From Candidatus Melainabacteria bacterium (GTDB lineage Bacteria > Cyanobacteriota > Vampirovibrionia > 2-02-FULL-35-15), in contig JAHFBF010000001.1 in the NCBI GenBank assembly GCA_023250195.1, positions 62,001 through 126,000 on the forward strand: DNA of 64,000 nucleotides, written 5' to 3'. Under the pieces are notes generated by a model. The model was not told where the DNA came from, did not search any database, and worked only from the letters and a program-made list of their open reading frames with translations. A program made the position numbers and the translations under genes. This document shows, one piece after another, positions 17,178-64,000 of the stretch (the first letter of the stretch is position 1; each line of letters starts with the position of its first letter).

Positions 17178-17196
17178 AACTTATTAGAATCCTTCT

Positions 17197-17280
17197 GTCA
17201 TTCTGAACGAAGCGAAGAATCTCAGTTGACCGATAACACCTTTGTGAGATTCTTCAGTCGTTTCACTCCTTCAGAATGAC
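17197..17280. repeat. REP-like palindromic element (GTCATTCTGAA...TTCAGAATGAC)
   Basis: Terminal inverted repeats of 11 bases (17197-17207 and 17270-17280) flank an interior with a second inverted pair, GAATCTCA and TGAGATTC. It fills the gap between a divergent gene pair. It has the same outer logic (GTCATT...AATGAC) as six other elements in the window, but a distinct interior, so it may be a related subfamily. Confidence 0.75.
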
Positions 17281-17333
17281 ATTTATATTTGACAAATCAA
17301 CATACTCCTCACAGTTCAATTATAATAAAACTC

Positions 17334-24122: not shown

Positions 24123-24845
24123 CTAGAATGCTATAAAATTAAATATTTCATTAAGATTTAAAATTGTCTTTATACCTTGGGCTTGCTGCAGCAAGCCCAT
24201 ACTGTAATTTCCCTCTCTATTAAGTAATAAAGAATTGATACCCAAATCACATGCAGGATAATAATCAATATTCAAGCTATCACCCACATATAAAGCCTCT
24301 TCTGGAATGATATTTAATTCATTCAATGCATATTGAAATATCTTTGGATCTGGTTTTGAAAAACCAACTTTACCTGAATATGCCAGGCAATGAAAGTATT
24401 TATTCAATTCTAATTCTTTTAAAATTATTTCCAGCCTGGAATCAAAATTTGAAATTAACCCGATCTGTACGAGTTTGCCATGGCAAACCCCTCCGAATAA
24501 TTTTTCCAAAACCGGAATCACATCCGGATAAATCGTCCATGCACTTTTTTGGGAGAATACTTTAAACAATTCTTTAAAAACTTCATCAAATTTATTTTTC
24601 AAATCATAACCACATAAATCAAAGGTTTTGAATACAACCTCTCTCCACCATTTTTTTTCTTCCAATTCTCCAGCAACAGGAGGAACTTCTTTTTTAACTA
24701 CCTCAGCAAACTTCTCATCCAATTTCCTATAATCAGTCTCAAAACCAAATGACCGTGCAACATTTGAATAAACATAACCTACCGGATCTTTTGGATAGAT
24801 TAGTGTTCCAGCAAGATCGAATAAGATAGCTTTGATTTTTTTCAT
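24123..24845 (-). CDS. HAD-superfamily hydrolase carrying two in-frame palindrome insertions
   Basis: Cytoplasmic phosphatase-like protein of 240 residues. Motif I is F-D-L-A-G-T-L: the nucleophile Asp10 is present but the usual second Asp is Ala12, as in phosphonatase-type enzymes. Motif II is L-I-S-N-F-D, the Lys is in G-F-S-K-P-D-P, and motif IV is Y-V-G-D-S-L-N-I-D. Two perfect palindromes lie in the gene, 24178-24199 and 24473-24488, encoding residues about 214-224 and 118-127; both fall at loop positions where relatives are shorter by eye. Substrate unknown. It begins 8 bases after the ROK kinase gene. Confidence 0.85.
   Translation of the reverse strand: MKKIKAILFDLAGTLIYPKDPVGYVYSNVARSFGFETDYRKLDEKFAEVVKKEVPPVAGELEEKKWWREVVFKTFDLCGYDLKNKFDEVFKELFKVFSQKSAWTIYPDVIPVLEKLFGGVCHGKLVQIGLISNFDSRLEIILKELELNKYFHCLAYSGKVGFSKPDPKIFQYALNELNIIPEEALYVGDSLNIDYYPACDLGINSLLLNREGNYSMGLLQQAQGIKTILNLNEIFNFIAF
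24178..24199. repeat. In-frame palindrome within the HAD gene, core CTTGCTGCAGCAAG
   Basis: A perfect 22-base palindrome with flanks resembling GTAT and AGGTAT. Read in the gene it encodes M-G-L-L-Q-Q-A-Q near residues 216-223, after motif IV. The outer bases fit the GTAGGGG...CCCCTAC pattern of the intergenic palindromes in this window. Confidence 0.7.
24473..24488. repeat. In-frame palindrome within the HAD gene, core TTTGCCATGGCAAA
   Basis: A perfect 16-base palindrome, preceded on the coding strand by GGAGGG and followed by TCGTAC. It encodes V-C-H-G-K between a cap-side helix and the L-I-S-N-F-D strand, a place where homologues usually have a short turn. The flanks resemble the GTAGGGG...CCCTAC family ends. 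Confidence 0.65.
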
Positions 24846-30160: not shown

Positions 30161-30823
30161 ATGCTAGAGATATTTAGTCGGTTTATAGATTTAATTTTTG
30201 AGAATTCCTGTGTGATTTGCAATGAATCATCCGGACAAAATCCTATATGCAAGTTCTGTGAAAATAATTTCATAATTAGAAGTAAAGCCAGCAGTATTAA
30301 ATCATTCGAGAAAATAACTGTTTACAGCTGGGGATTATATGACGGAAGGCTAAGAGATGGGATTATATCCCTTAAAGCCGGAAAAAAGAAATTAGCAAAT
30401 TACTTTTCCGAAAAGTTAGTAACCTTTTGGAAAACACTGCCTGAAGAAATCAGAAATAGAAATTATCTTGTAATGCCTATTCCGTCTCACAAACAAAGGA
30501 TTAAAGAAAGAGGTTACTGTCAAACGACTTTAATAACATCCTATTTCACAGAAGCCCTGGAATTAAGTTTTGCAAATAATTTTGTTTCAAGAAAAAAACA
30601 GACTCAATTCATGAATAGCTTAAGTGGAATCAATGAACGAAGAGAAAATATAAACAATGCATTTGAAATAGCTAATCCTGTTAATGCAAAAGATATTTTA
30701 GTCATCGATGACATCCTTACTTCAGGTAGTACTTTATGTGAATTTGCCAGAACAATTCATAAAGCTCATCCACATACAAACATTTTAGGATTAACTGTGG
30801 CGGCTGGGGATAGATATAACTAG
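30161..30823 (+). CDS. comF: ComF-family phosphoribosyltransferase-like protein
   Basis: Protein of the ComF group, linked to uptake of transforming DNA, where it acts after DNA import. A four-Cys zinc site (C-V-I-C near residue 18 and C-K-F-C near residue 30) precedes a phosphoribosyltransferase domain with the PRPP loop L-V-I-D-D-I-L-T-S-G-S-T. Length 220 residues. Together with the pilin-like gene elsewhere in the window it is compatible with natural competence, but neither alone proves it. Confidence 0.88.
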   Translation: MLEIFSRFIDLIFENSCVICNESSGQNPICKFCENNFIIRSKASSIKSFEKITVYSWGLYDGRLRDGIISLKAGKKKLANYFSEKLVTFWKTLPEEIRNRNYLVMPIPSHKQRIKERGYCQTTLITSYFTEALELSFANNFVSRKKQTQFMNSLSGINERRENINNAFEIANPVNAKDILVIDDILTSGSTLCEFARTIHKAHPHTNILGLTVAAGDRYN

Positions 30824-30827
30824 TTGT

Positions 30828-30912
30828 GTCATTGCGAGGAGGTTCTTTAGAACCGACGAGCAATCTCACAAACGTTAGGAGATTGCCGCGTCGCTTCGCT
30901 CCTCGCAATGAC
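30828..30912. repeat. REP-like palindromic element (GTCATTGCGAGG...CCTCGCAATGAC)
   Basis: Outer inverted repeats of 12 bases (GTCATTGCGAGG at the left, its complement at the right) enclose a second pair, GCAATCTC and GAGATTGC, around AACGTTAGG. It sits between comF and the convergent mlaF-like gene. Closely related copies occur at 32491, 33582 and 55830. Confidence 0.85.
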
Positions 30913-30917
30913 ATGAC

Positions 30918-31646
30918 TTACTCTTTAATAACAACCATGGGTCCTTGTTTTGCACCTTCTATAAATTGCTTTGCATAGGGATTGTCTCCACTAAATAATT
31001 TTTCACTTGTTCCTTCCCATGCAATTTTTGAATCATAAAGGAGAATTATACGACTTGATATCTTTTTTATTACATTTAAATTGTGCGTTACCAATACACT
31101 TGAAGCATTTAATTCATTTTGAAGTTTTAAAATATAATCTACAATTATATTTGAAACGACAGGATCAAGACCACTTGTAGGTTCATCATAAAGAATAATT
31201 TCCGGATCATTTATTATTGCCCTTGCAAGACTAACTCTTTTTTTCATACCTCCCGATAATTCATCAGGCCTTAAATTCTCCATTCCAGACAAGCCAACTA
31301 TCCTTAATTTTTCTGAAACTTTCTGTTTTATCTGCTCATAAGCAATTTTTTTGTTTTGATTTATAAGAGGGAAGGCAACATTATCAAAAACACTCATCGA
31401 ATCAAACAGAGCAGCCCCTTGAAAAACCATTCCAAGGTGTGTGGTTTTAAGAATAACTTCACCTGAATCCGGTTCATCTAAACCTGAAATTATTCTAAGC
31501 AGTGTAGATTTTCCAGAACCAGAAAAACCAATAATCAGCAGAACTTCATTATGATAGACATTGAAACTTATATTATGCAGTACTTTCTTCTTTCCAAAAG
31601 ATTTACATAAATTTTTTATTTCTACAATGGGTTCAAGCAGTGACAT
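30918..31646 (-). CDS. ABC transporter ATPase, MlaF/Ttg2A-like
   Basis: Cytoplasmic ATPase with Walker A (G-F-S-G-S-G-K-S-T), signature L-S-G-G-M-K-K-R-V and Walker B (I-I-L-Y-D-E-P-T-S-G-L-D-P). The G-G-M-K-K-R-V form of the signature and the V-F-Q-G-A-A-L-F-D-S-M Q-loop are characteristic of the MlaF subgroup that moves phospholipids between membranes. Walker A has Phe where Gly/Arg is common. No mlaE or mlaD gene is adjacent; kdsA overlaps its start by 14 bases, coupling two envelope functions. Confidence 0.85.
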   Translation of the reverse strand: MSLLEPIVEIKNLCKSFGKKKVLHNISFNVYHNEVLLIIGFSGSGKSTLLRIISGLDEPDSGEVILKTTHLGMVFQGAALFDSMSVFDNVAFPLINQNKKIAYEQIKQKVSEKLRIVGLSGMENLRPDELSGGMKKRVSLARAIINDPEIILYDEPTSGLDPVVSNIIVDYILKLQNELNASSVLVTHNLNVIKKISSRIILLYDSKIAWEGTSEKLFSGDNPYAKQFIEGAKQGPMVVIKE

Positions 31647-32472: not shown

Positions 32473-32490
32473 AAAATGATATCATTACAC

Positions 32491-32588
32491 GTCATTGCGA
32501 GAAGCAATCTCCAAAACGTTATGAGATTGCCGCGCTCGCCTCGCTCCGGTGGAGCGGATCGGCTCTTGTAGAGCCTCCTCGCAATGAC
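32491..32588. repeat. REP-like palindromic element (GTCATTGCGAG...CTCGCAATGAC)
   Basis: Same outer ends as the copy at 30828, with GCAATCTC / GAGATTGC inside and an extra CGCTCCGGTGGAGCG hairpin and GGCTCTTGTAGAGCC hairpin in the right half. It sits between recR and kdsA, so may affect the joint transcript. Confidence 0.85.
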
Positions 32589-32599
32589 GCTCACTTGAA

Positions 32600-34028: not shown

Positions 34029-34066
34029 GCCCCAGTAGAGACGTGATTAATCACGTCTCTTGGGGC
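34029..34066. repeat. GTAGAG-type palindrome, core ACGTGATTAATCACGT
   Basis: The inner 24 bases (34037-34060) are a perfect palindrome starting AGAGACG and ending CGTCTCT, flanked by GCCCC on the left and GGGGC on the right. Repeats of the form GTAGAGACG...CGTCTCTAC are familiar to me from cyanobacterial genomes. It lies 7 bases past the metF stop and could also fold in the messenger as a terminator-like hairpin. Confidence 0.75.
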
Positions 34067-38203: not shown

Positions 38204-38231
38204 GTAGAGGCATGCTGTAGCATGCCTCTAC
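38204..38231. repeat. GTAGAG-type palindrome, core GCATGC-TGTA-GCATGC
   Basis: Perfect 12-bp arms (38204-38215 and 38220-38231) start GTAGAGG and end CCTCTAC around TGTA. It follows the PDZ gene by 17 bases and precedes rpsB. Confidence 0.8.
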
Positions 38232-42249: not shown

Positions 42250-42681
42250 ATGAATCCAAGCGTCATTTCATTACTGTTATTAAGGCTTGCAATAAGTTAT
42301 ATATGGCTGAGTGCAGGACTAAGCAAACTTTTTAATTCCCAGTTTATAGGCACGTTTTCAAATACACTTAATGGTTTTGCAAAAGGTACACATTATAGTT
42401 TTTATGCTGGCTTTTTAAAAGATTATATTATTCCACATTCCCAAATTTTTGCACAGCTTACTATCTGGGGTGAAATCCTTACTGGAATTGCTTTTTTATT
42501 GGGGTTTCCATTATTTCTTGCTGCTGCAATAGGCATTTTTATGAATCTAAATTATTTTTTCATAGCAACTTCAACACCATCACAATTTTTAAACATTATT
42601 ATGATTTTTTCCCAGCTTGCTGCATATGCAAACAGTGCAGGGAGTTTCTGGGGGTTATCGGCTTCCATTAGCAAAAAGTAG
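42250..42681 (+). CDS. DoxX-family membrane protein
   Basis: A 143-residue protein with four membrane helices. The R-L-A-I-S-Y-I-W-L-S-A-G-L-S-K-L opening and G-E-I-L-T-G-I-A-F-L-L-G-F-P fit the DoxX/DoxD-like fold. Molecular role unknown; relatives take part in redox or respiratory complexes. Its stop codon lies inside a 28-base palindrome. dnaE follows. Confidence 0.75.
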   Translation: MNPSVISLLLLRLAISYIWLSAGLSKLFNSQFIGTFSNTLNGFAKGTHYSFYAGFLKDYIIPHSQIFAQLTIWGEILTGIAFLLGFPLFLAAAIGIFMNLNYFFIATSTPSQFLNIIMIFSQLAAYANSAGSFWGLSASISKK

Positions 42682-42705
42682 GTACGTAGCATGCTACGTA
42701 CCTAC
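42678..42705. repeat. GTAGG-type perfect 28-base palindrome
   Basis: Begins GTAGGTACGTAGC, is fully self-complementary with no loop, and ends CGTACCTAC. The TAG stop codon of the DoxX-like gene is bases 42679-42681, so the element supplies or overlaps that stop. Confidence 0.85.
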
Positions 42706-55790: not shown

Positions 55791-55829
55791 AAGGAATCTT
55801 ATGTTAAGCAATTCGGATAAAGGTTACAC

Positions 55830-55916
55830 GTCATTGCGAGAAGACACAAAGTGCCGACGCAGCAATACACCTAACGTTTTGGAGATTGCTTCGTCGCTAT
55901 CGCTCCTCGCAATGAC
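55830..55916. repeat. REP-like palindromic element
   Basis: GTCATTGCGAG and CTCGCAATGAC ends as in the copies at 30828, 32491 and 33582, with AACGTTTTGGAGATTGC in the middle. It lies between argF and rsmH. Confidence 0.85.
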
Positions 55917-55940
55917 GCAAATCAAAAGAAAACTTAAAAA

Positions 55941-63011: not shown

Positions 63012-64000
63012 ATGAATAATTCTCAGCCTACCCTCCATCTCTCAGAAATAATAATCACAAACAACAGTGAACCTATCATTAATGGTGGTTTATTAATTGA
63101 AGATTCAAAAATAATTGCCGTTGGAAAGACAGAAGACTTCGGAGATTATAAAAACAAGAACATAAAAATCATTAATCATAAAGACTCTCTAATTTGTCCT
63201 GGTTTTATTAATCTGCACAGTCATTTGCTTTATTCAAAGACTGGCAAGATAAATAGTTCAGATGGGCTATTCCCATGGTTAGAACAATTAGTATCAAACA
63301 TGAAAGACTGGCAGGAAGATGCTTACATAAACTCAATTAATTTTGGGATAAATCAAGCACTTTCAACTGGAACAACCTTTCTTGTAGAAAATACTCCGAG
63401 TAATTTATCAGCTCAAGAGTTATCAAAAAGTCCTCTTAGAGCCTTGATTGGAATAGAAGTGTTTGGTTCTGATGAAAGTGAAACAGAAAACATATTGCAC
63501 AACACATTAGAACAAATGAGTAATTGTCATTCCCGCTTTTGCGAGAATGACATAAAAAGAATTGAATTAACATTTTCTCCTCATGCTCCCTATGATGTCT
63601 CAAAACCTTTATGGAAAAGGCTTTTACAATGGTCACAAGAGAACAGCAAACTACTTCTTACTCATCTTGAAGAATCTCCTGATGAAAAACTTTGGTGGCA
63701 AAACAAATCAGGCAAAGCCGTAAACTTTTGGAAGTCTATTAATAAGCTTGAACCAAAATTAAAATATTGGGAAAAATATAATTCAGGAATTGACTTCTTA
63801 AATAAGAACAACCTGCTCAGTAAAAATATTATTGGAACCCACCTTTGTCAGGCAAATAAAGATAACTTAACTGTGCTTAAAGAAAAAAATATTAATTTAG
63901 TTCACTGTCCAAGAAGTAATTATTATTTAAATAATGGCACTGCAAATTTAAAGCTTTGGAATGAACTTGGTATCCTTTGGGGAATTGGAACTGACAGTAT
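63012..64000 (+). CDS. Amidohydrolase-family deaminase (partial, runs off the window)
   Basis: Open from an ATG at 63012 to the window end, 329 codons without a stop. Metal-binding motifs are in order: P-G-F-I-N-L-H-S-H, a strand L-L-L-T-H-L-E-E, I-I-G-T-H-L-C, V-H-C-P-R-S-N and G-I-G-T-D-S at the edge. This fits the cytosine/MTA/SAH/aminofutalosine/guanine deaminase group; the exact substrate cannot be told. Residues about 172-181 (C-H-S-R-F-C-E-N-D-I) come from an in-frame palindrome. Confidence 0.85.
   Translation, partial: MNNSQPTLHLSEIIITNNSEPIINGGLLIEDSKIIAVGKTEDFGDYKNKNIKIINHKDSLICPGFINLHSHLLYSKTGKINSSDGLFPWLEQLVSNMKDWQEDAYINSINFGINQALSTGTTFLVENTPSNLSAQELSKSPLRALIGIEVFGSDESETENILHNTLEQMSNCHSRFCENDIKRIELTFSPHAPYDVSKPLWKRLLQWSQENSKLLLTHLEESPDEKLWWQNKSGKAVNFWKSINKLEPKLKYWEKYNSGIDFLNKNNLLSKNIIGTHLCQANKDNLTVLKEKNINLVHCPRSNYYLNNGTANLKLWNELGILWGIGTDS
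63526..63551. repeat. In-frame REP-derived palindrome inside the amidohydrolase gene
   Basis: GTCATTCCCGC pairs with GCGAGAATGAC (one mismatch) around TTTT. It equals the left hairpin type of the element at 41417 and is read in frame as C-H-S-R-F-C-E-N-D-I. Confidence 0.8.

Follow-up and report, generated by a model that had tools for sequence, protein, structure and literature searches.

Two palindromes in a melainabacterial HAD hydrolase gene, probable worn copies of a dispersed 28-bp GTAG-tagged repeat that occupies protein loops in frame

How can a gene for a conserved enzyme carry two palindromes and still encode an intact protein? This question is raised by a gene of 240 codons (24126..24845, minus strand; stop codon at 24123-24125) in the window, the whole stretch of 64,000 nucleotides that was analysed. 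The open reading frame, a match to TIGR02252 (DREG-2; E=1.2e-51, 175 bits, above the curated cut-off of 155) and a homologue in the PDB (HDHD3) identify its product as a HAD-superfamily hydrolase similar to DREG-2/HDHD3. A first-pass annotation had located two perfect palindromes in frame within this gene and considered its catalytic motifs intact. Both observations were confirmed: positions 24178-24199 read TGGGCTTGCTGCAGCAAGCCCA and positions 24473-24488 read GTTTGCCATGGCAAAC, while the invariant D10, SNFD 132-135, K164 and GD 188-189 are all present. First-order Markov shuffles of the window led us to expect 0.07 perfect palindromes of ≥22 nt and 2.1 of ≥16 nt, and thus the 16-nt palindrome is unremarkable by itself.

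Each palindrome forms part of a 28-mer. Element 1 (GGAGGGGTTTGCCATGGCAAACTCGTAC; 24467..24494, minus strand) contains the 16-nt palindrome and encodes residues 118-127 (GGVCHGKLVQ), and element 2 (GTATGGGCTTGCTGCAGCAAGCCCAAGG; 24175..24202, minus strand) contains the 22-nt palindrome and encodes residues at about 214-224 (SMGLLQQAQ). Read on the coding strand, element 1 matches an intact 28-mer of genome G003, a member of the same family, at 25 of 28 positions (GTAGGGGTTTGCCATGGCAAACCCCTAC), and element 2 matches another intact G003 copy at 23 of 28 (GTAGGGGCTTGCTGCAGCAAGCCCCTAC), whereas the best match to intact family members in 20 shuffled windows reached 16-18 of 28. Judged by these alignments, the palindromes of the HAD gene appear to be eroded members of a dispersed family of 28-bp palindromes with the form GTAG-N20-CTAC. 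In an AlphaFold2 model (mean pLDDT 84.7) element 1 is predicted to form the loop (118-126) between helix 109-117 and strand 127-132. Element 2 corresponds to a surface loop ahead of the C-terminal helix, where residues 215-221 are the sole stretch with pLDDT <50. Both additions to the protein are probably neutral.

The residues at both sites are absent from orthologues of the order and from PDB homologues, with one exception at site 1, in agreement with the view of the first-pass annotation that the two loops are additional. HAD orthologues were found in six genomes of the order at 50-64% identity. Between conserved anchors, site 1 comprises 12 residues here versus 7, 7, 7, 7 and 5 in orthologues, and site 2 comprises 15 versus 8-12; net gains against orthologues are +5 to +7 residues for element 1 and about +6 for element 2. 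The HDHD3 structure 3k1z likewise lacks the site-1 residues. The exception is a partial orthologue from an incomplete gene of G009, which has a site-1 loop of equal length, unrelated in sequence and non-palindromic; the loop at site 1 is therefore variable anyway. No HAD orthologue was detected in G001 and G002, which belong to the same genus, and a scan of named genomes returned distant homologues only, the nearest with good coverage coming from Picosynechococcus. Taken with the genome sizes, this homologue suggests that the lineage is a non-photosynthetic one within Cyanobacteriota.

The repeat is dispersed in this genome (G000) and across the order. Allowing up to two mismatches, GTAGGGG-N14-CCCCTAC occurs at 65 places in the 2.21-Mb genome, compared to a single place when the pattern was reversed as a control. 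Sampling relied on pattern searches and on sequence stretches, and 65 copies are a lower bound. Many of these at least 65 copies lie in frame within genes. The exact motif GTAGRGG..CCYCTAC was counted 35 times here, 32 times in G003, 11 times in G005 and 0-6 times in each remaining genome of the order. Class-mates almost lack it, and within the phylum it occurs in 99 of 386 genomes with up to 170 copies. Identical 28-mers are present at 2-4 unrelated loci, e.g. GTAGAGGCGTATTGCAATACGCCTCTAC at L012, L014 and L123 and inside the L152 gene. In most of 165 elements both arms start with GTAG (positions 1-4); GTAG pairs with CTAC, and the palindrome covers all 28 nt, being self-complementary throughout. 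Intergenic members in the window are GTAGAGGCATGCTGTAGCATGCCTCTAC (38204..38231, at G000:C6:100204-100231; ends GTAGAGG..CCTCTAC), the perfect 28-bp palindrome GTAGGTACGTAGCATGCTACGTACCTAC (42678..42705; ends GTAGGTA..TACCTAC) and GTAGAGACGTGATTAATCACGTCTCTTG (34035..34062; ends GTAGAGA..TCTCTTG). Exact GTAGGGG ends, which had been ascribed to the intergenic palindromes of the window, are carried by none of them; GTAGGGG..CCCCTAC was found elsewhere in the genome.

A second inverted-repeat family, CGTCATTGCGAG..CTCGCAATGACG, lies between genes of the window at 30822-30918, 32490-32589, 55829-55917, 17196-17281 and 63525-63552. One copy is in frame within MtnA of G003 (L277; VIARSDSDEAISSGIASPLARNDN) and another perhaps within RsmG of G003; the family starts with CGTC, as does the CGTC-tagged REP class.

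A large share of the copies resides in genes. Internal to ORFs of ≥130 aa were 23 of 58 sampled elements in G000, 15 of 32 in G003 and 0 of 17 in G058 (Fisher P=0.0005). A slight majority of sampled copies thus lies outside ORFs; an intergenic bias is a tendency of the REP class and not its definition. Of the reading frames, frame 0 is used 24 times, frame 1 14 times and frame 2, which opens with the stop TAG, not once. Hosts, named from our reading of the sequences, include enolase, TrpA, TrpC, MnmA, QueG, RsmG, MtnA, FtsY, MurI and RecN, among others. Alignment of 19 gene families from up to 11 genomes gave 77 elements at 40 sites, so that in-frame insertion across many unrelated genes, a trait of the Rickettsia palindromic elements (RPEs), is found here as well. 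In G058, a relative with a genome of photosynthetic size, the same palindrome was observed between genes (L361-L375), partly in tandem arrays and with a nearly uniform core (CGTATWGCAATACG).

The genomes of the order encode two IS200-type TnpA genes and seven RAYT-like genes (weak Y1_Tnp matches; motifs of the HHRRSIRLK / MPDHIHGI / WQRNYYEHIIR type), of which two lie in G000. All seven RAYT ORFs (L114-L120) hold either a palindrome, of GTAG type or, in G007, of GAAG type, or else two paired GTAG hairpins that resemble a REPIN. The palindromes mostly occupy the same region of the ORF, e.g. CRDAINRVST in G005 and VGANQCVCPNTKRGRPVCLPLQ in G000. No palindrome was found in the two IS200-like TnpA genes. 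Presence and location are what tie the repeat to RAYT, and mobilisation through RAYT is likely; counting against it, RAYT was not detected in three genomes of the order with 1-4 copies of the repeat. A further palindrome type, GAAGGCGAGG..CCTCGCCTTC, was seen in frame in G003 genes and in the RAYT gene of G007 (L161, L163, L114).

Many in-frame copies lie at loops that are shorter in relatives. The loop of RfaE is extended from 7 to 12 residues and that of an MBL-fold protein from 5 to 10, each being constant in nine other orthologues. Corresponding changes are 8 to 12 in MnmA, 8 to 13 in TrpC, 5 to 12 in RecN, 4 to 11 in FtsY and 3 to 10 in the enolase of G003. The PDB homologues compared for HAD, TrpC, MnmA, QueG and enolase lack the insert residues, which for TrpC, enolase, MnmA and QueG marks the short loop as the ancestral state. 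In 30 comparisons with elementless orthologues, some of which share a site and are not independent events, genes with an element were longer by a net +3 to +24 nt (mode +15; in no case ≥27), or +1 to +8 residues. Since this is smaller than the 28-nt element, native loop sequence was lost. Accordingly, the elements do encode extra residues, as the first-pass annotation had proposed, but not by simple addition, as part of the native loop is replaced. At the nucleotide level no recent empty site was seen, so that junctions were inferred from orthologues with 50-87% protein identity.

We consider it probable that the palindromes of the HAD gene are decayed copies of a non-autonomous 28-bp GTAG-tagged repeat of the REP class, presumably moved by RAYT, and that such copies enter loops in frame and partly replace them. 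RAYT-type Y1 transposases would move copies via a single-stranded hairpin. Entry into a gene would survive only in the two open frames (GTA-RGG.. or.GT-AGR-GG), as opposed to the third with its initial TAG, and survival would also require junctions that restore the frame. Entry would usually cost about 13 nt of the native loop, and hence the protein would gain about 5 residues instead of 9-10. The HAD gene would have accepted two such inserts while keeping its catalytic residues.

The loss of native nucleotides may also have occurred later. Loops are known to shrink under selection. Clean entry of the full element (27-30 nt), with selection trimming the adjacent loop afterwards, would involve the same donor family and yield the same final anatomy; it is a variant of our preferred reading that differs only in the timing of the loss. 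Against it, not one of the 30 comparisons gave a gain of ≥27 nt, still-perfect palindromes included, and we regard late trimming as a serious possibility that is nevertheless less probable than replacement upon entry.

The two arms of the elements evolve together. All 14 pairs match in 40 of 71 elements of G000 and 23 of 41 of G003, fractions which are upper estimates as detection favours palindromes. Pairs of perfect palindromes that are one symmetric change apart (19 in G000, 18 in G003) are a direct sign of arms changing in concert, and variants of the ends are often symmetric too (GCAG..CTGC, GTAC..GTAC, GTAA..TTAC). Furthermore, 50 different cores were found among 67 copies in G000 versus 5 among 16 in G058. 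Cores here are far more varied than is usual for a RAYT-driven family, which counts against the explanation that we prefer. Copying from a single arm, in which a single-stranded half element is inserted in the loop and completed by fold-back that overwrites native sequence, would account for perfect symmetry, concerted arms, core diversity and a gain of about one arm. We know of no such copying mechanism for REP elements, and we consider it unlikely.

In QueG, RsmG and RfaE, the ends of the elements seemed on visual inspection to share convincing microhomology with the native loop DNA. Native sequence superimposed on the element ends gave 176 matches in the 30 comparisons (null mean 158, maximum 188); this is not clearly above chance, and microhomology was dropped as a candidate.

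The palindromes could also have been made in place, without any mobile element, by template switching, in which a nascent strand would pair back onto a short half site resembling GTAG and copy itself, so converting native loop sequence to a perfect palindrome. Arms that change in concert, as seen in the perfect copies and in the 19 and 18 symmetric one-step pairs, as well as the high core diversity and a net gain near one arm, are in line with this process, which has been credited with the coding palindromes of Nematomorpha (PMC6649704). However, copying is needed to explain why the same 28-mer recurs at unrelated loci and why the GTAG ends are conserved, and the correspondence of native sequence with element ends (176, against a null mean of 158 and a maximum of 188) is not clearly above chance, so that template switching is improbable here.

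The same loops are hit repeatedly. Elements are present in at least two genomes at 22 of the 40 sites, with positions that mostly agree to the codon. In TrpC, QueG, TrpA, MtnA and the MBL-fold protein, several genera have residues encoded by a palindrome in the same loops, yet with differing sequences; the cores in QueG, for example, are CAAGTCGCGACTTG in G000, CTTACCATGGTAAG in G002 of the same genus and CGTTGCCTGCAACG in G003. A single ancestral insertion per site with vertical inheritance was rejected, because element presence requires 2-5 changes per shared site on a species tree of 5105 residues and same-site cores are hardly more alike (10.3 of 20) than random pairs (9.2 of 20). Only a few pairs look inherited (FtsY, RsmG, TrpA, LdpA, TrpC site 31). 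Two readings fit this pattern: a small number of tolerated positions may take repeated hits, or one element may be swapped for another at its site. The limits on gene entry proposed above would lead to re-use of tolerant loops in different lineages. In orthologous uncharacterised proteins of G000 (L007) and G003 (L163) the element occupies the same loop in different frames (VGTGRDQSLQ vs CRGVLQYAPT), which is evidence for independent hits. Across the order, four separate loops of TrpC (L139, L179) are hit, and G000 by itself accounts for two.

Presence at each site is patchy even inside a genus. This speaks against the idea that the palindromes are kept for a function as RNA hairpin, protein-binding site or DNA uptake signal, with the encoded residues as a by-product, as do the visible decay of copies such as those in the HAD gene and the fact that class-mates live almost without the repeat. 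Conserved ends and symmetry with varying cores would fit such a role, and REP hairpins can serve as RNA or DNA sites (PMC3733652); nevertheless, we hold it to be very improbable. That ordinary fast-evolving loops acquired palindromes by chance or codon bias, as the length variation among orthologues at site 1 and the equally long, unrelated G009 loop might suggest, is refuted by the genome-wide family, with matches of 25/28 and 23/28 against at most 18/28 in shuffled windows and dozens of parallel cases, and has next to no probability left.

The family offers a dense natural experiment on the acceptance of foreign peptides by proteins, in which orthologues without the element are available for comparison. 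Three questions become testable: whether protein loops are seeded by small repeats, how 28 nt enter a gene without breaking it, and whether RAYT enzymes are responsible.

RPEs are the classic case of in-gene palindromic repeats, and the elements studied here had been taken for RPE-like but of a different family and lineage. This assignment holds, with GTAG ends instead of the CGTC tag and a host from another phylum. The small dispersed repeats of cyanobacteria, reportedly described by Elhai et al. in 2008 as very small and palindromic, are alike by that description and come from the same phylum. A literature search for palindromic repeats in Melainabacteria gave nothing relevant. With RPEs the present repeats share the in-frame position in many unrelated genes and the tolerance in loops (PMC3733652, PMC6649704), while RPE-1 and the CGTC-tagged RPE-4/RPE-6 differ in end tag and sequence and Rickettsia belongs to a different phylum; RPE-4/RPE-6 of R. 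conorii have been equated with the CGTC-tagged class (Di Nocera et al. 2013, PMC3733652). In RPEs the identity of the two arms reportedly declines with time, whereas 56% of the copies sampled here are perfect and the arms evolve jointly. The coding palindromes of Nematomorpha mitochondria are likewise near-perfect, located inside functional genes and concerted in their arms, but they have arms of up to 142 bp each, and no dispersed family with common ends is described for them (PMC6649704).

The closest likeness is to GTAG-tagged REPs (PMC3733652) and REPINs (PMC3116915), which are dispersed palindromes of 20-40 nt with a GTAG terminus. They occur in Cyanobacteria (GTAG-12, -15, -16), include complementary stem variants, as noted for REP families by Di Nocera et al., and have in-gene copies in several species with RAYT genes in the genome (PMC3733652). 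Here, too, a 28-nt GTAG palindrome forms a dispersed multicopy family in a genome that encodes RAYT. In the published families GTAG is unpaired at one end only of the stem-loop, whereas here the whole 28 bp are self-complementary with GTAG at both ends; as GTAG is paired with CTAC, the repeat is a variant related to the GTAG class and not one of the 24 published families. REPs are mostly intergenic, whereas 40-47% of copies sampled here lie inside conserved genes, and over half of in-gene REP inserts are dimers or groups of 20-30 residues, unlike the single units with a net gain of about 5 found here (PMC3733652). Cores are highly diverse here, and RAYT genes carry the palindrome within their own ORF. 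Di Nocera, De Gregorio and Rocco (2013) described GTAG and CGTC REPs inside genes of several bacteria, and recB of two Xanthomonas species carries different REPs at about the same site (PMC3733652). In-frame REPs are thus of a known kind, though in-gene repeats rarely reach the scale seen here. New, as far as the literature consulted shows, are the lineage, the high in-gene share of single full-length palindromes, the partial replacement of native loops, the recurrent use of particular loops in different genera and the presence of the element inside RAYT genes.
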